Shown here: in pieces, positions 1 through 61,642 of the stretch
Position numbering within the stretch: the stretch's first letter is position 1
Layout of the letters: every line of letters begins with the position of its first letter
Assembly: GCA_001796335.1 (NCBI GenBank)
Contig: MGMF01000018.1
Span: forward strand, 1-64,000
DNA: 64,000 nucleotides
From: Chloroflexi bacterium GWB2_49_20
Lineage (GTDB): Bacteria; Chloroflexota; Anaerolineae; Anaerolineales; Villigracilaceae
Direction of reading: 5' to 3'
Made by a program: the position numbers and the translations under genes
The notes under the pieces: model-generated
Seen by the model: only the letters and a program-made list of their open reading frames with translations
What the model was told of the DNA's origin: nothing
Database searches by the model: none

Positions 1-153
1 GAAGCAGCAGCAGTCGTGAAACGATCTCCTTCTGTATCTGATTCTGGTTCTGATTCTGGTTCTGGTTCTGAATCTGGTAGTGGTGGTAGTAGTTTAATTA
101 TGGATCAAAAAGAAAAGATTCTACTACTACCACTACTACTAATACTAGAAAAA

Positions 154-269
154 TCGGAAATATTCCGACTTTATAAAGCAAGATCGGAAATATTCCGACT
201 CTGCCGCCCTGCCCACCCGGGAGCCTGTGGAAAACCTGTGGATAAAAAGTCGGAAAAATTCCGACTTTT
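154..269. repeat. three copies of the palindrome TCGGAA-N3-TTCCGA
   Basis: Copies lie at 154-168, 184-198 and 250-264. The third extends to a perfect 11-bp inverted repeat with a 3-base centre (245-269). The copies are spaced 30 and 66 bp apart, and the first and third are followed by a similar TTNTAAAGC/TTTCAAAGC tail. They may be operator sites or a REP-like family. Two copies lie between the DnaA boxes and the TAG runs; the third abuts the second DnaA box. Confidence 0.8.
226..245 (-). other. pair of DnaA boxes
   Basis: The minus strand reads TTATCCACA (245-237), the perfect consensus, and TTTTCCACA (234-226), a common variant, in the same orientation two bases apart. The only other consensus box I noticed in the window (44520-44528) is isolated inside a coding region. 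Confidence 0.7.
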
Positions 270-373
270 CAAAGCCGGCATCCGTGATCCAGATCATCGT
301 TGAATGTTGTTCCCAAACTACATGGGGATCTCTGCTGCGCTGCGAAACGTGTAACGGGCAACGTGCTTTACGG

Positions 374-4450: not shown

Positions 4451-5581
4451 CTAACCCAAATGCATGGGCATGATGACGTGCAGAAAATCATCTGACCCCA
4501 CCGGCCGGATGACACCCGGGCTGTTGGCCGCACTGGTCTCGAGGGCGACATTGGGTGATCTGACCACCTCCAGCACCTCGCGCAGGAAGCGCACGTTAAA
4601 GGCGATCAACAACCCGACCCCATCAATGGTGGCAGAAACGATGGTCTCGTTTGACCCGGTCTCCTCGGATTGGGCAGAGATCTCGACAGAGCCGGGTTCC
4701 AGATCACCGCTGGATTTGATGTTGAAACGGGCTACATTTGAGCCCTCGCGTGCAAAGATCTCGGCCTGTTTGCAGGCTTTAAGCAGTGACTGGGTGGAAA
4801 GGATGGTGCGGGACTTGTATGCCCGTGGAATGATCTGCTGGTAATCCGGGAAAACGCCATCGATCAATTGGGAGACCAATTCGGCATCCTTCACGCGGAA
4901 AACCACCTGGCCCCGGCCTTTGGGTAGAACCATTGAGATCATTTCACCACCCTCTGCCGTGATGCGTGCCAGTTCATTCAGAGCGCGGGCCGGGATGATG
5001 GCGGAAAGTGCTTGCGGGGCAGATGTGGATAGGGTGGCGTGCCGCACTGACAGCCGGAATCCATCCGCAGCCGCCATAGTCAGTTTGTCCCCTTCCACAT
5101 TCATCAATACACCCATCAATACCGGGCGGGCTTCATCCGTGGAGGCTGCAAAGGCCACCTGCTGGATGATCTCCTTGAAGTCAGCCACATTGATCTGGAA
5201 GGCAGAATCCATTTCGGGTACCGGCATGGGTGGAAACTCCTGGGAATCGATGCACTTGATATCCGTATTCGAGGCCCCGGCGCGCACGTTCAAGCTCTGG
5301 GTGGTGGTGTTCAGGTTCAAGCTGACCTGTTCAGCGGGTAGCGTCCCCACCAGGTCCACAAAGGTGCGCGCTGGCACAGTCGTGGAGCCCTCCTCCTCGA
5401 TTTTTGCTCCGATCCAGCAGGTAATGCCCAGTTCCAGGTTGGTTGCTGAAAGACGCAAGCGGCCCTCATCTGTGGCAACCAGTACATTGGAGAGTACGGG
5501 CAGGGTGCTGCGCGGGGAGACCGCGCGTGATACGATGCTTAATCCATGTGCCAGGGTTTCTTGCAGTACGGTAACTTTCAT
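4451..5581 (-). CDS. dnaN: DNA polymerase III beta subunit (sliding clamp)
   Basis: The sliding clamp is a ring-shaped dimer that holds DNA polymerase III on DNA. The 376-residue protein starts at MKVTVLQETLAHGL and ends in MPMHLG, the expected clamp C-terminus. LPVLSNVL near residue 30 and the three-domain length fit the family. I chose the ATG at 5581 because homologues begin there; the open frame reaches 53 codons further upstream without any clamp sequence. Neither dnaA nor recF flanks it here: its neighbours are a lipoprotein gene and icd. Confidence 0.96.
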   Translation of the reverse strand: MKVTVLQETLAHGLSIVSRAVSPRSTLPVLSNVLVATDEGRLRLSATNLELGITCWIGAKIEEEGSTTVPARTFVDLVGTLPAEQVSLNLNTTTQSLNVRAGASNTDIKCIDSQEFPPMPVPEMDSAFQINVADFKEIIQQVAFAASTDEARPVLMGVLMNVEGDKLTMAAADGFRLSVRHATLSTSAPQALSAIIPARALNELARITAEGGEMISMVLPKGRGQVVFRVKDAELVSQLIDGVFPDYQQIIPRAYKSRTILSTQSLLKACKQAEIFAREGSNVARFNIKSSGDLEPGSVEISAQSEETGSNETIVSATIDGVGLLIAFNVRFLREVLEVVRSPNVALETSAANSPGVIRPVGSDDFLHVIMPMHLG

Positions 5582-5646
5582 GGCTTCGATCCTCTCATCT
5601 ATAATTGTGTCAATCCTCATTGGGGGATGACGTCCAGCCTTCATAA

Positions 5647-5675
5647 AGTATATCCTGAGACATGCAAAGTGAAAA
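5647..5675 (-). promoter_or_regulatory. putative dnaN promoter
   Basis: The minus strand reads TTTTCA (5675-5670), a 17-base spacer and TATACT (5652-5647). The leader to the dnaN ATG would be about 60 bases. Confidence 0.45.
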
Positions 5676-5806
5676 GGCAATTTAATAGCAATTCGCAAAG
5701 ACATCCCGCAAAAGTCAACCTTGAAGGATGCCTGACACACTTTTCAGTAACCTGGCCACTTCGCGCGACATTGACCGGGGTTCTGCATCCAATAATAGTC
5801 CTGATT

Positions 5807-56700: not shown

Positions 56701-59649
56701 GGCGGTACCATCTGAACCAGTAGAGAAATTTGAACTGGAGACTGGTGTAAATACAGGTACATAGCTGGGGTATGGGTTGTTGGGGTCGTTTGATTCCTGG
56801 CTTTCCCAGGTGACCTGTTGAAATTCTGCATTCAGGCTGCGGGATGCGGATGGGTTGGACTTCCAATCCACTGTGAGGACATCGAAGCCCATCTCGGTGC
56901 CAGCCTGGCCGACCCACAGGTCAGGGCGCAGACCGATGTAAAAATCAGCGGGGTGACGCCGGGCATTGGCACTTCCGGAAACCTGTTGCCCGCTTTCGTC
57001 CTGGGCAGTTACTTCAAGTGTCAGCTCGTGTATATCTTCAATGGCTGGCAGATCGGAAAAAGTCAGAGTGACGATCCCGTTCGCATCGGTAACAGCCTCG
57101 CCCTGGTCGAGGGCTTCGCCGTAGTAGCCGCCTGGCTGGGTATACCAGAAGCTGTTGTAATTGCCCACCTGGTAGCCCGGCAGGCTGAAGTTATCTGGAT
57201 TGGAATACAGGGTCCACTGCAGGCTCATACCATCCACCGGGGCATCGAAAAAGTAGCGAGCTGAGATGGTGGCTTGCAGTGGCTGGTTGTCATTCACGTC
57301 AGCGGGTTGCAAGTCCACGGACAGGTTGATACCGGGCTTGCGGTAGTTGGCCACATTGAAGTAACCGTAAAAATTGGAGATGTCGGACGAGATGGAATAA
57401 TATCCCGGCACAGCATCTGCTGGCAGTTGAAACTCACCCGAGGCAGTGCCAAAATCGAAGAGCGGCAGGTCAAACTTCCAGCTTGAACCGTAGCTATCCA
57501 GGATGGAAAAAGGCAGGCTTTGCAGATCGACCGGAGTGTAACGCCCGTCAAAGGCCTGGCGCGCCACGATGCGGAAGTAGACTGTTTGACCGGGACGGTA
57601 GATGGGACGGTCGGTATAGAAATATACATGCGGGGCGGGAGGGGTACGATCGGAAGATAAGCCAAAATTCCAGGGTGCGATCTCCTGGCTCCAGTCCGAT
57701 TGCGCCATGCCAAAGGTGGCATCCCCCGGCTGACCGAGCACTGCAAAATAGGAACTGTAATAATTATCCTGGGTGGGCGTGGGAACCGGACCATGCCAGA
57801 GCCCCTGTGCGTCGGTTTGACCGGAGGCCAGCAGGCTGCCGTCATCCCGGTAAAGGCTGAGCGAGGCGTTGGCTACCGGTGTGTTGCTGCGCAGATCCAT
57901 GGCCCACACCAAAGCGTCCTGGCTGCCCATTTTGAAGGTTAGATTGATATCGCTGGCCACAAGAAAAACCTTTTGCTGCCCATAAGACCCACCCTGCATG
58001 GCTTGGAGTGCTGAAAGGGTCAGGTGATACAGGCCGGGTGTCAATTGGTCCCCCAGAGAAATGCCTACCTGCTGGCTGGTGTTGGCGGGCAGGTTGAGCA
58101 TGGCTGTCCAGTTGGTGGAGTTGGCCGGGTCGGGAGTGTAGGCTTGGCGGGCATCGTACCCATTGGGACCCACCAGGGAGAGCAAATCCTCGAAGCTCAG
58201 GGGCGCCAGGTTGACGTCAATACTGGCCAGGTTGGTGGCTTGCACGTAATAGTCCGGCTGGCTGGCGCGCACGAAATAAGTATCCGTGCCCAGGTACAGC
58301 AGGTCCATGCCCGGGGTGGCTGGCGGTGTGGTGAAATGGGTGGTGAAAGGCTGCCCCAGGCTCTGCCCCCAGATATCCTTTAAATTTTTATTGATGGTGA
58401 CGGTGTAGGATGTTTCGGCCTGTAACGAGCCGCTCACATATAGGGCGTTGTCGGAGCCATAAGCGTAAAAGTTGGCAACCGGAGGGTCGATGGAAACCAG
58501 GGATTGATATGCGCTGGTCTGGATCGGAGCGCTGAAATGGATCTCGAGATTGCTATACATGGAAGACAGGCTGCCGGTGTCGTACGGGTCAGTGTATAAG
58601 ACCTTGAAATCCGGATAGGTTTGCACAACAAAACGGTTCTCTGCCCCGATGGCGCTGCCGCCACGAGCCTGCGCCCCGGCGCCCAGCAGCAGGGTGTAAT
58701 TGGTGGAGCGTGCAAGCTGGGCGGAGGGAGTAAAGGTCAGAATGGTGTGATTGGAATTCCAGGAGAAGTTTCCAGCCACCGCTCCGGTGGGGGAGCTAAA
58801 GCTGAAATTTGCTTCAACGCTGGTTGGGTCCATGGGCTGGTTGAAGCTCAATTTGAGGGGCTGGTCGAGCGGGAAGGAGTTTTCACTGGAAGGCTCAAGC
58901 GTGAGCAAGCGTGGCAGACCGACCGTGAAACTCCAGGTCAGATTGGTAGTATCCAACAGACTGCCGGAGCTGGCGGTGAGAGCCGGGTTGAGGCTGGCAG
59001 TGTATTCCACGCCCCCACTCAGGCCGGGGTCAGGGTAAAAGATGTAGGTACTGGTATTGATCCATTCACCCGATCCGTCGGCGGATGGTTGCAGGCTGAA
59101 GCCCTGTGGCAGGCTGGTCGGATCAGCGCCCAGGGGGACGACCGGCTGGTTGAAAGCTGCCACTATAGCGGCAGACGAGGAGACGTCCTGCGTGCCGCTT
59201 TCGGGTAGACTTTGGGTCAGGCGCAGGGCGTCGGAGGTGACGAAATTGACGGTGACGGGCTGTTGGAAGCCAAGTCCATTGCTGGCTTGCAGGCTGGTGT
59301 CGAGTGTGATGTTCAGGCTGGCGTTTACTGCAAAGGCCTGCAGGGGGGTGAATTTGAGGCTGCTGTCATCCAGCCAGTCAAATTTACCGGTGACCTCAAG
59401 CTGGTCTGCCAGGGCAGTCTCCACGGCGGTGCGCTGCATGGGCTGGTTGAAATAGAAAGTCAGCGCCTGCTGCATGGCGATCACGCTGCCGGAGGGTGGG
59501 TCTGTTTCGACCAGGACGGGTGGCAGGGGCGGCAGAGGAATCGTGGTGGGCGATGGGGTGGCTTGTGGTGTCCCCAGGGGAAGATTACACGACGAGAGTG
59601 CCAAAAGAATAACGATGCCAATGCGCCAGTACGGATTGAGTTTGTTCAT
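53800..59649 (-). CDS. alpha-2-macroglobulin-family lipoprotein with altered thioester site
   Basis: The 1949-residue protein should sit on the outer face of the membrane. MNKLNPYWRIGIVILLALSSC is a lipoprotein signal, with GGAGG before the ATG at 59649. Ig-like Big_5 type domains (SGSVIAMQQALTFYFNQPMQ and similar) come first, then macroglobulin domains, a bait-like region, the A2M domain (NFPDTAYWSANIVTDADG near 1230) and the thioester/alpha-barrel domain. The normal CxEQ thioester is replaced: Cys1445 is kept but reads CSNET with one extra residue before FLP, so the trap may not bond its target. No pbpC neighbour is present, unlike many bacterial A2M genes. Confidence 0.92.
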   Translation of the reverse strand: MNKLNPYWRIGIVILLALSSCNLPLGTPQATPSPTTIPLPPLPPVLVETDPPSGSVIAMQQALTFYFNQPMQRTAVETALADQLEVTGKFDWLDDSSLKFTPLQAFAVNASLNITLDTSLQASNGLGFQQPVTVNFVTSDALRLTQSLPESGTQDVSSSAAIVAAFNQPVVPLGADPTSLPQGFSLQPSADGSGEWINTSTYIFYPDPGLSGGVEYTASLNPALTASSGSLLDTTNLTWSFTVGLPRLLTLEPSSENSFPLDQPLKLSFNQPMDPTSVEANFSFSSPTGAVAGNFSWNSNHTILTFTPSAQLARSTNYTLLLGAGAQARGGSAIGAENRFVVQTYPDFKVLYTDPYDTGSLSSMYSNLEIHFSAPIQTSAYQSLVSIDPPVANFYAYGSDNALYVSGSLQAETSYTVTINKNLKDIWGQSLGQPFTTHFTTPPATPGMDLLYLGTDTYFVRASQPDYYVQATNLASIDVNLAPLSFEDLLSLVGPNGYDARQAYTPDPANSTNWTAMLNLPANTSQQVGISLGDQLTPGLYHLTLSALQAMQGGSYGQQKVFLVASDINLTFKMGSQDALVWAMDLRSNTPVANASLSLYRDDGSLLASGQTDAQGLWHGPVPTPTQDNYYSSYFAVLGQPGDATFGMAQSDWSQEIAPWNFGLSSDRTPPAPHVYFYTDRPIYRPGQTVYFRIVARQAFDGRYTPVDLQSLPFSILDSYGSSWKFDLPLFDFGTASGEFQLPADAVPGYYSISSDISNFYGYFNVANYRKPGINLSVDLQPADVNDNQPLQATISARYFFDAPVDGMSLQWTLYSNPDNFSLPGYQVGNYNSFWYTQPGGYYGEALDQGEAVTDANGIVTLTFSDLPAIEDIHELTLEVTAQDESGQQVSGSANARRHPADFYIGLRPDLWVGQAGTEMGFDVLTVDWKSNPSASRSLNAEFQQVTWESQESNDPNNPYPSYVPVFTPVSSSNFSTGSDGTARLKFTAPNPGTFMLDVSADGVRSQLMVWVAGQEQAVWPNLSFQKISLTADRDEYQPGQIANIFIPNPIGEVVPALVSVERGSIHSQQIVRVAAGGSIFSLPLTDADAPNVYVSVTLVGASTFRQGFINLPVSPKAQTLKVELTSQPERSEPGGEVTFGLRVTDANGTPVQAEFSLAVVDLAALALADPNSLEILPAFYGNQPLGITTGLSLAAESRRGVNLSGGQGGGGGDGIFVEVARQNFPDTAYWSANIVTDADGLAQASIKLPDNLTTWQVDVRGLTKDTRVGQADMQVVSTKQLLVRPVTPRFLVAGDHVELGAMVNNNTSTVLSVDVSLQATNFNLDDPSKASQSLNVPAGGRSFVTWWGTAQSAESADFTFSVQGGGLSDASHPEYGALPILRYLAPQTFSTAGILSDAGTRLEAISLPRTFDPQSGSLNLEMAPSLAAVLLSGLDAIEEPPSSCSNETLLSYFLPNLEVYQSLQDSGLNFPALQTRYENNLKSTLQRLILGKNQDGGWSWWSASLISWENQQTSDPYLTAYVLMGLYEAQQAGFTVDAAILDQARSFLNINRPYIGGNTLEDWQLDLLAFEAYVLQITGGVETNVVDTLYTGREHLSPWSQALLALTIADVSSLDARVTELLSNLETSAIRSATGAHWESQSRGWHNPGSTLVTSAMVGYALAVHDPASPLLADAVRYLAAHQDVSSTWGSNYESAWVIRALNAYMVGTGGYTADFTFNATLNGLPLAEGQAAGASVLTPVTTSVGLDSLNPAAANALQITRQSGSGSLYYRAALQVYQPVEDTEPLNKGLQLSRSYFSPDCKKNCQPLHSIQLTQGGRLTVRLSLNLPHDVYYLMLEDFLPAGAEILDTSLKTSQQGQGSGMDVSVSYDPEDPYARGWGWWYFDTPRIFDDHIQWSANFLPAGSYELTYTLIPLQAGQFRVLPAHAWQTYFPEVQGTSAGEIFEIKR

Positions 59650-59677
59650 GTGCAGCCTCCTGAATGGGTACATGCTT

Positions 59678-59711
59678 ATTATACAATGCCCCAAGGTACG
59701 TGGGGTACCTT
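59678..59711 (-). promoter_or_regulatory. alpha-2-macroglobulin promoter with a palindrome over the -35
   Basis: The minus strand has TATAAT (59683-59678) about 30 bases before the ATG. AAGGTAC-N5-GTACCTT (59693-59711) covers the -35 position, where a repressor or activator could bind. Confidence 0.5.
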
Positions 59712-59755
59712 TAGGACGCACAACAGGCCACACTTGTTCCACCTTTAAGAGAAGA

Positions 59756-59781
59756 GGGGGATTATAAGAAGAAAATCCCCC
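59756..59781. other. hairpin in the divergent spacer
   Basis: GGGGGATT (59756-59763) pairs with AATCCCCC (59774-59781). It lies just upstream of the transporter promoter and may be an operator; there is no T-tract. Confidence 0.45.
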
Positions 59782-59782
59782 A

Positions 59783-59812
59783 TTGTTTTATTCGAGAAAA
59801 AAATGATACAAT
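59783..59812 (+). promoter_or_regulatory. promoter of the peptide ABC transporter operon
   Basis: TTGTTT (59783-59788), an 18-base spacer and TACAAT (59807-59812) with a TGA extension. The leader is about 105 bases. Confidence 0.6.
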
Positions 59813-59923
59813 ACCCTTAGTGCTTATGTTCCAATAAGAAAGGAGGCAAATAAAAAAGATAAACAAATGATCCAACAGAATTGTCGCTTTTCACGAATTA
59901 CACAAATGATAGAGGAGAAATCA

Positions 59924-61642
59924 ATGAATAAAAAATCTATTTACACAATTGTAGGGCTGATAGTGATATTAACTATGGTGTTGACAGCCTGCGCACCCAA
60001 GACACCAGCCGTAACCCAAGTCCCGGGTGCTACTGATGCCCCAGCCGCTGAATTGCCCACCACATTCATCTTTGGGCGTGGAGCGGATTCGGTCCAATTG
60101 GACCCTGCGATCGTTACGGATGGTGAATCCTTCCGTGTTACGGGTCAGGTTCTTGAACCGCTCTACGAATATGAACTCGGCAGCACGGTTCCTGTACCGG
60201 CTCTCGCCGAAGAATGCGTACCGAATGCAGATGCTACAGTTTGGAATTGTAAACTACGCGAAGGTGTCAAATTCCATGATGGTACCGATTTCAATGCTGA
60301 TGCAGTAGTCTTCAACTTCGAACGCTGGCGCTTCACCACCGACCCATACCATTTTGCCAGCCAGGTGTTCGAGTATTACGAAGCTATGTTTGGTGGTTTT
60401 GACGATGCAAGTATGATCACCGAAGTCAAGAAAGTTGATGATTACAACGTTCAATTTACACTGAGCGACCCATTGGCTCCCTTTCTGGCCAACCTTGCGA
60501 TGGACATGTTCGCCATCTCCAGCCCGGCCGCAATTGAAGCCGCCGGTGAAGCTTATGGCACCCCAACTGGTGGTGTCGTTGGAACCGGCCCATTCAAATT
60601 CGTTTCCTGGGAAGAGGGCAATCAGATCATCGTGGACGCCAATGCAGATTATTGGGGCGGCGCTCCAACGATCAAACAAATCGTCTTCCGCGTTATTCCG
60701 GATGATTCAGCCCGCTTCCTGGCTCTCAAAGCCGGTGATATCCACGGTTTGGAACAGGCCGTTGTGGAAGATCTTGCATCTGCTGAGGCAGATCCCAATC
60801 TCACCATTATTACCCGCCCGGCTTTAAATACCAGCTACCTGGCCTTCAACTACAATATCCTGGAATTCCAGGATATTCGAGTACGTGAAGCAGTTGCGCA
60901 TGCCATAGACAAAGAAGGTTTGATCTCCAACTTCTTTGGCAAATATGGTGAAGTTGCCAAGAATCTCCTGCCTCCATTGGTCTGGGGTCATAATGACGCA
61001 GTTGTTGATTGGACTTTCGACCCTGCACTTTCCAAACAACTCCTGTCTGATGCCGGTTTCCCCGATGGCTTGAGCGAAGTCACCATTGCTGAGGATATCC
61101 TTAATGCAGATGGTGCTGTAGTTTATAAAGCCGGAGATAAGATTCCTCTGCGCCTTTATTACATGCCGGTTACACGCTTCTACTTCCCGGCAGCCAAGGA
61201 AGTTGGCGAAGCAATGGCAGCCAACCTGACCGCGGCCGGCTTCAATGTTGAGCTGTATCTCGAAGGTGACTGGCCGACTTACCTGGGTTCACGCCGTAAT
61301 GGACTTCTGGTTGGTTTGTACCTGTTGGGATGGGGTGGAGACAACGGTGACCCGGATAACTTTACCGGATATTTCTTCAGCGGTGGAGCAGAGCCCATCA
61401 AGCGTGAAGGTTGGTACCAGAATGCCGAGTTGGCTGATCTGCTTCGTCAGGCCTTGGTCAACCCCGATCGAGCTGCCCGCGAAGCAATCTACCAACAGAC
61501 TGAACAACTGATGCACGATGATGTTATGCGTATCTGGCTTGGTCACAACAACACACCCTTGATCTTCTCATCCAAGGTCACGGGTTACGGAGCACAACCA
61601 GTAGGCGCTGACTACTTTGAGTTCATCGAATTTGTGCCGTAA
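59924..61642 (+). CDS. peptide/nickel-type ABC transporter substrate-binding lipoprotein
   Basis: The 572-residue protein is an SBP_bac_5 family binding protein. The signal peptide ends in LTAC. LREGVKFHDGTDFNADAVVFNFERW and GTGPFKFVSWEEGNQI are family signatures, and GWGGDNGDPDNFTGYFF is typical of oligopeptide/dipeptide binders. GAGGAG before the ATG at 59924 gives the start. The ligand is unknown. A stable hairpin between this gene and the permease gene would let the binding protein be made in excess. Confidence 0.93.
   Translation: MNKKSIYTIVGLIVILTMVLTACAPKTPAVTQVPGATDAPAAELPTTFIFGRGADSVQLDPAIVTDGESFRVTGQVLEPLYEYELGSTVPVPALAEECVPNADATVWNCKLREGVKFHDGTDFNADAVVFNFERWRFTTDPYHFASQVFEYYEAMFGGFDDASMITEVKKVDDYNVQFTLSDPLAPFLANLAMDMFAISSPAAIEAAGEAYGTPTGGVVGTGPFKFVSWEEGNQIIVDANADYWGGAPTIKQIVFRVIPDDSARFLALKAGDIHGLEQAVVEDLASAEADPNLTIITRPALNTSYLAFNYNILEFQDIRVREAVAHAIDKEGLISNFFGKYGEVAKNLLPPLVWGHNDAVVDWTFDPALSKQLLSDAGFPDGLSEVTIAEDILNADGAVVYKAGDKIPLRLYYMPVTRFYFPAAKEVGEAMAANLTAAGFNVELYLEGDWPTYLGSRRNGLLVGLYLLGWGGDNGDPDNFTGYFFSGGAEPIKREGWYQNAELADLLRQALVNPDRAAREAIYQQTEQLMHDDVMRIWLGHNNTPLIFSSKVTGYGAQPVGADYFEFIEFVP
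60854..60877. repeat. perfect 24-bp palindrome inside the binding-protein gene
   Basis: The twelve bases AATATCCTGGAA are followed at once by their exact reverse complement. The codons read YNILEFQDI. Palindromes of this length are rare by chance in coding DNA. Confidence 0.85.

Follow-up and report, generated by a model that had tools for sequence, protein, structure and literature searches.

A probable mobile-element replication origin module, truncated at a contig end of a Chloroflexi genome, with intact relatives inside initiator-like genes

The stretch of DNA analyzed here (the window) comprises 64,000 nucleotides of Chloroflexi bacterium GWB2_49_20, whose genome is assembled into 28 contigs totaling 3.37 Mb. 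Position 1 of the window is the first base of contig C18 (contigs of this genome are given as C, loci in the comparisons as L). The contig opens with an open reading frame (ORF) remnant, beyond whose stop at 303 glyQS starts at 421. The remnant contains a compact set of sites, which a first-pass annotation had read as a candidate chromosomal origin with convergent DnaA-trio runs:

1–303, plus strand: putative initiator-gene linker remnant, 100 codons, 5′ open at the contig end, stop at 303
25–78, plus strand: TCTGAT/TCTGGT hexamer repeats, similar to the tandem repeats in the linker of a DnaD-type initiator
77–92, unstranded: left triplet arm GTAGTGGTGGTAGTAG, inverted repeat with the right arm
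93–120, unstranded: AT-rich core between the arms, 82% AT
121–147, unstranded: right triplet arm CTACTACTACCACTACTACTAATACTA, inverted repeat with the left arm
154–168, unstranded: palindrome 1, TCGGAAATATTCCGA, putative initiator-binding site
184–198, unstranded: palindrome 2, TCGGAAATATTCCGA, from the inverted-repeat and genome palindrome scans
201–225, unstranded: GC cluster, 84% GC
226–234, minus strand: DnaA box TTTTCCACA, from the box scan of the window
237–245, minus strand: DnaA box TTATCCACA, from the same scan
250–264, unstranded: palindrome 3, TCGGAAAAATTCCGA, from the inverted-repeat and genome palindrome scans

The physical elements named in that annotation are all present: two perfect DnaA boxes, a GC cluster, TAG/CTA triplet runs facing each other on either side of an AT-rich core, and short palindromes, which amount to three 15-bp copies of TCGGAAWWATTCCGA. 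The proximity of dnaN was also borne out, the gene (three Pfam domains) lying at 4451–5740, ~4.2 kb from the element. The two triplet arms are 94% complementary to each other over 16 bp, and three further single perfect DnaA boxes occur elsewhere in the window. The ORF remnant has no Pfam match and lacks both the N-terminal and the C-terminal initiator domains, while positions 24–63 match C24:5155–5194, inside a DnaD-type initiator gene, at 90%.

The identification of the triplet runs as DnaA-trios did not survive. From the boxes toward the AT core, the box-proximal run reads TAG, not CTA, and it lies 78 bp from the nearest box, compared with the limit of 16 bp used for DnaA-trios in PMC8287927; in Helicobacter pylori, unwinding is inhibited when trio polarity is reversed (PMC8235120). 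Since polarity and spacing both fail, a strict DnaA-trio reading of the arms was rejected. A search of both window strands under two rules found no CTA (3′-GAT-5′) triplets reading toward an AT core at 16 bp or less from a DnaA box; the laxer rule was allowed to accept CGA units after the site on C12 described below had been read, and does find that site.

A chromosomal oriC with DnaA-trio elements would account for the two perfect boxes, the GC cluster, the AT core, and dnaN at 4.2 kb, yet we regard it as having next to no likelihood. Apart from the wrong triplet polarity and the 78-bp spacing, the module occurs in several copies per genome, and the same module lies within phage-type initiator-like genes elsewhere. 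The dnaA gene, expected just upstream of position 1, is instead on C5, the window starting at a contig end, and no TTWTCCACA box was found in 12 kb around dnaA. Judged as a single-copy element conserved in synteny, the module does not qualify, being multicopy, with the syntenic DnaA-box cluster on C12. With the multiple copies, the location of dnaA, and the C12 cluster all against it, the chromosomal reading was rejected. A better DnaA-box cluster beside dnaA at another locus had been named in advance as counter-evidence; such a cluster does exist, at C12:48682–48996 (L338:5683–5997), but not beside dnaA. It occupies an intergenic region with four perfect boxes, the tandem ones at C12:48947–48996. 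On the minus strand, the order is TTATCCACT-TTTTCTACA-4 bp-CTACTACGACTACTA, followed by AT-rich DNA, and this succession of box, box, CTA trio, and AT-rich DNA matches the basal unwinding system in both order and polarity (PMC8287927, PMC8235120). The gene neighboring the cluster is present in 34 of 37 genomes, this one included. At least two TTWTMCACA boxes lie within 1 kb of its 3′ end at 15 of 20 loci (again including this one), with boxes followed by CTACTACTATTACTA in G001 and G019; the cluster is missing from the other five (one box in G004; none in G007, G013, G016, and G049). From its sequence, C12:48682–48996 is likely the chromosomal oriC, on another contig than either dnaA (C5) or dnaN (C18). 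With 28 contigs and the window at a contig end, GC skew is near zero on C12 and gradual on the sampled part of C21; among 2-kb bins of the window, it is highest (0.204) at 58001–60000. For draft genomes in general, DnaA boxes and triplet runs near dnaN are not sufficient for calling oriC.

Besides C18, the same genome carries copies of the module on C4, C21 (in tandem), and C25. The C4 copy is 99% identical over 268 bp, likewise lies at a contig start, and extends a few codons further upstream (TKDVTEAAAVVKRS); the C25 copy is at C25:401–550, and the C21 copies form a tandem array at C21:320363–320885. At C21:320339–320909, the array follows a truncated DnaD-type N-domain and contains two DnaA-box pairs ~240 bp apart. 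At its end, C19 carries part of a related initiator gene. Our reading is that the module is a repeat at which the assembly broke. DNA similarity to it was sought in 60 relatives and found only in its own genome. Allowing up to one mismatch, the palindrome occurs at 14 places in 3.37 Mb, all within the module copies on C18, C4, C21, and C25, and the reversed-pattern control at none.

Direct tandem perfect DnaA boxes within 30 bp form four pairs in the modules and two overlapping pairs on C12 and occur nowhere else in the genome, where the control gave none and no inverted pairs were found. Such confinement would be consistent with DnaA-titration sites on a mobile element, the decoy type known as datA, and the C21 array, with its two box pairs, is a possible DnaA sink. 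Perfect boxes, however, occur in only two of 31 member ORFs (C25 and L046), plus L302, and since the other 29 lack them, they look like an add-on; we consider titration a very improbable explanation of the module.

The C25 copy reveals what an intact version looks like. Here, the module is in frame within a 210-amino-acid ORF, whose AlphaFold model has a confident winged helix-turn-helix (wHTH) at ~residues 11–70 and a confident helical domain at ~131–190, with pLDDT below 50 at residues 79–81 and 83–123, i.e., most of the module-encoded part (~81–131). The wHTH fold is ArsR/MarR-like, with Z up to 11 in a fold search that barely covered the C-terminal helical domain, and Foldseek returned no match for the protein at E ≤ 0.001. 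Palindrome-plus-triplet patterns identified 37 distinct loci in IMG/VR and GTDB contigs, 13 of which have the module in frame after the wHTH of a homologous ORF. The other 24 were set aside by eye, among them L047 and L048, two viral contigs with several CGGAA-type palindromes judged to be without twin arms. In C25 and the 13 loci, a site array lies inside the coding sequence of a DNA-binding protein that is presumably an initiator.

Around the modules of family members, L030 has portal, head protease, and endolysin genes. Head, portal, or terminase genes are present on L045, L046, L054, and L239, and ParB-like genes on L112 and L197. For L052 and L060, no packaging match was obtained with the single large ORFs that were tested, and L075, an Anaerolineaceae metagenome-assembled genome, carries a family member. 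A DnaA_N domain (PF11638) near the C-terminus scored above the cut-off in L050 (1.5e-8) and L090 (1.7e-9) and below it in L160. Six wHTH proteins scanned against Pfam and PHROG gave no good match to a replication family. One wHTH protein used as a query returned three loci, all on contigs already known, while tblastn found no match for three wHTH proteins in 50,697 phage records, nor for one in 72,556 plasmids. In the genome itself, C24 encodes a sister initiator that scores E = 5.3e-22 against PHROG 186, a DnaD-like helicase loader; downstream of its gene come two small ORFs and then a terminase gene (TerL). This provirus-like cluster (L013:2562–5613) has an initiator with the palindrome TTGAAACGAAACGTTTCAA and hexamer repeats. 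Neither close relatives of the C24 initiator nor a DnaD-type N-domain was found in viral contigs. Further TerL relatives lie at C1:232785–234254 and C11:406–2046, with no initiator seen nearby by eye. The phage context of the module consists of such genes (for portal, head protease, endolysin, or terminase) on L030, L045, L046, L054, L239, and C24.

Scans for the triplet arms alone, in both orders, gave at least 240 matches in at least 239 loci. Among the arm loci listed, nine have a repeated palindrome flanking the arms (L112, L128, L197, L216, L233, L239, L249, L283, and L302), a tenth, L169, having been set aside as a microsatellite. Likewise, among the arm loci listed, the wHTH profile has matches at E < 1 in eight of 13,185 ORFs (L160, L302, L233, L283, L197, L295, L249, and L239), six of them at 6e-4 or better and L249 and L239 at 0.003–0.004; in all eight, the arms lie inside the matching ORF. 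The two signs together define at least 11 loci, of which L233 and L283 are near-copies. L112, L128, and L216 have no wHTH profile match, and their ORFs are taken as relatives by layout only; the remaining arm loci listed have neither a flanking repeated palindrome nor a wHTH match.

The order of the arms is not conserved, TAG..CTA and CTA..TAG both being found among relatives. Even within one clade (support 93/97), L049/L062 differ from L059/L060, in a tree built without L128, L092, and L302 and poorly resolved, with good support on three of 26 inner branches. Among copies that also have perfect DnaA boxes, those on C18, C4, C21, C25, and L046 read TAG..CTA, opposite to a trio on the near side. 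In L302, the arms run CTA..TAG, but its DnaA box, 48 bp away from the arm, is in reversed orientation. At L302:3409–4032, the palindrome AAAACCGCGAATAACGCGGTTTT flanks the CTA..TAG arms on both sides, accompanied by a perfect DnaA box.

A search by protein alone gave a similar picture. The wHTH profile matched in eight of 396 genomes of the class, and a similar profile at a stricter limit, in a 400-genome sample of the phylum, found only this genome. Nine loci outside this genome were recovered (L091 and L092 from one genome), and after the truncated L089 was left out, all eight others have a perfect linker palindrome. Its longest arm was reached by few of 200 synonymous shuffles (11 for L084, 0 for L085, 4 for L086, 1 for L087, 1 for L088, 0 for L090, 5 for L091, and 1 for L092). 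None of the eight contains the exact TCGGAAWWWTTCCGA, and four share the CGGAA half-site. TAG/CTA arms are present in four (L084, L086, L087, and L090), and L085 has tetranucleotide GATT/AATC arms instead. For the best inverted repeat of the linker, two kinds of shuffle (200 each) never reached the observed value in L084, L085, L086, and L090. They did so 13 and 6 times in L087, 16 and 24 in L088, 2 and 1 in L091, and 4 and 11 in L092, four loci in which this repeat does not stand out clearly from synonymous shuffles.

The palindromes differ between members and, to judge from the sequences, tend to vary with the recognition helix. In the members that were not found by palindrome, a [ST]DK helix goes with a CGGAA half-site in four of four cases and other helices in two of 13 (two of 14 with L302), giving a Fisher p of 0.006, or 0.018 with near-copies merged, values that are generous because the rule was chosen after the data were seen and the sequences are related. 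The C18, C4, and C21 copies are tied to a DnaD-type initiator yet carry a wHTH-type palindrome, which calls for a mosaic explanation and weakens the link. This tendency, together with the resemblance of the wHTH to ArsR/MarR repressors, would also suit an alternative in which the palindromes are autorepression operators of the wHTH protein and the triplet arms nothing but low-complexity linker codons. Such an explanation is unlikely, given that the inverted repeats exceed protein-preserving shuffles in four of eight loci, TAG/CTA arms recur alongside unrelated palindromes, the sites are inside the gene rather than at its start, and the DnaA_N domains and the DnaD-like sister type suggest replication.

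One palindrome is read in different frames within a single gene in C25, L045, L052, L062, L084, and L112. In the main wHTH family, the first palindrome is nearly always in one frame (SRNNSD), and in L302, one frame is used twice, so some constraint at the protein level is possible. At the RNA level, positions 30–290 of the window fold 6 standard deviations below 200 shuffles (z −6), a very stable fold that would favor a structure in the initiator mRNA, e.g., an attenuator. On the sense strand, however, the best inverted repeats of the 31 members (L302 excluded), which are arms in some and palindromes in others, have 34 A-C mismatches vs. 13 G-T, with 88 other and 874 paired positions. This bias, to which coding-strand composition may contribute, gives no sign of tolerance for G-U wobble; an mRNA hairpin is not supported, and we rate it as very unlikely.

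What remains of the earlier call of a chromosomal replication origin is the origin, by comparison with the relatives, and not the chromosome. We think it quite probable that the ORF remnant at the contig start carries a truncated copy of a replication origin module from a mobile element (phage-type), whose intact relatives lie in the linker DNA of initiator genes. What the sequences show is the recurrence of the module, its location within initiator-like genes, its constant plan with varying palindromes, and its phage context. The proteins that carry the module are, we infer, initiators, and the most likely arrangement is a lambda-like origin inside its own initiator gene with a symmetrical unwinding element. 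The window copy itself seems mosaic, joining a DnaD-type linker (the hexamer repeats) to a wHTH-type module, and it is probably a dead remnant, because both protein domains are missing and the ORF ends at 303. In an intact origin, the N-terminal winged helix of the initiator would bind the palindromes on both sides, whereby initiator dimers would be brought to the ends of the AT-rich core. The core would then open, and the inverted TAG/CTA arrays would expose equivalent single-strand sites on both strands, which may serve host DnaA and/or a DnaD-like partner, and helicase loading could then proceed in both directions. The copies in this genome additionally have one or two host DnaA boxes next to a palindrome.

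Possible, too, is that single strands on both sides are used in the manner of a trio or a DnaD element. A broader proposal, which we put forward tentatively and with some doubt, is that uncultured phages have self-encoded origins in which two mirror-image triplet arrays act as docking sites of the DnaA-trio/DnaD type. One symmetric element would thereby provide both strands with a helicase, palindromes would replace DnaA boxes, and some initiators would have their own DnaA domain I. In titles and abstract openings of the literature, an arrangement of twin inverted triplet arrays flanked by initiator palindromes was not described. The loading of two helicases, one per strand, at bacterial origins is described as unclear in PMC10201434. 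A compact symmetric origin with many swapped palindromes would make it testable with few parts.

Several known systems share parts of this plan. Like the basal unwinding system of bacterial oriC, the module has TAG/CTA triplets by an AT-rich core and, in some copies, DnaA boxes; unlike it, its box-proximal run has the opposite polarity, the spacing is 78 bp rather than at most 16, the arrays are doubled and inverted, perfect boxes are mostly absent, and the arm order flips. The DnaD recognition element of Bacillus subtilis oriC is comparable in two respects: the CTA runs of the module give TnnT every 3 nt, and one of the related initiator types resembles DnaD. The TnnT repeats bound by B. subtilis DnaD are described in PMC10201434 as lying only on the strand opposite the DnaA-trios, whereas the module has TnnT on both strands. 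Among DnaD-like phage helicase loaders (PHROG 186 and 3926), several relatives have linker palindromes followed by tandem repeats, the type that the hexamer repeats of the window resemble, but their palindromes are AACG-type and their repeats, by eye, apparently one-sided. In L368, L369, L370, L371, and L379, for instance, the linker DNA has AACG-type palindromes and, after them, tandem repeats of GAA/GTA or of hexamers. From their sequences, these DnaD-type linkers are perhaps a second family of in-gene origins, in a comparison made without L372 and L375 (no readable linker) and the short fragments L376 and L380.

A further parallel is phage lambda ori, where iterons lie on one side and an AT region on the other. 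As in the module, the origin is in the middle of the initiator gene, O (PMC3985674, PMC6022878), and the DNA encoding the initiator contains repeated binding sites. There is no clear sequence relation to lambda O: L059 matches the ‘O-like’ PHROG 678 (phrog_678) at only E = 0.062, a second query gave another weak hit, and four of six had none at E ≤ 0.1. Unlike lambda ori, the module has its core framed by palindromes and by two inverted triplet arrays.
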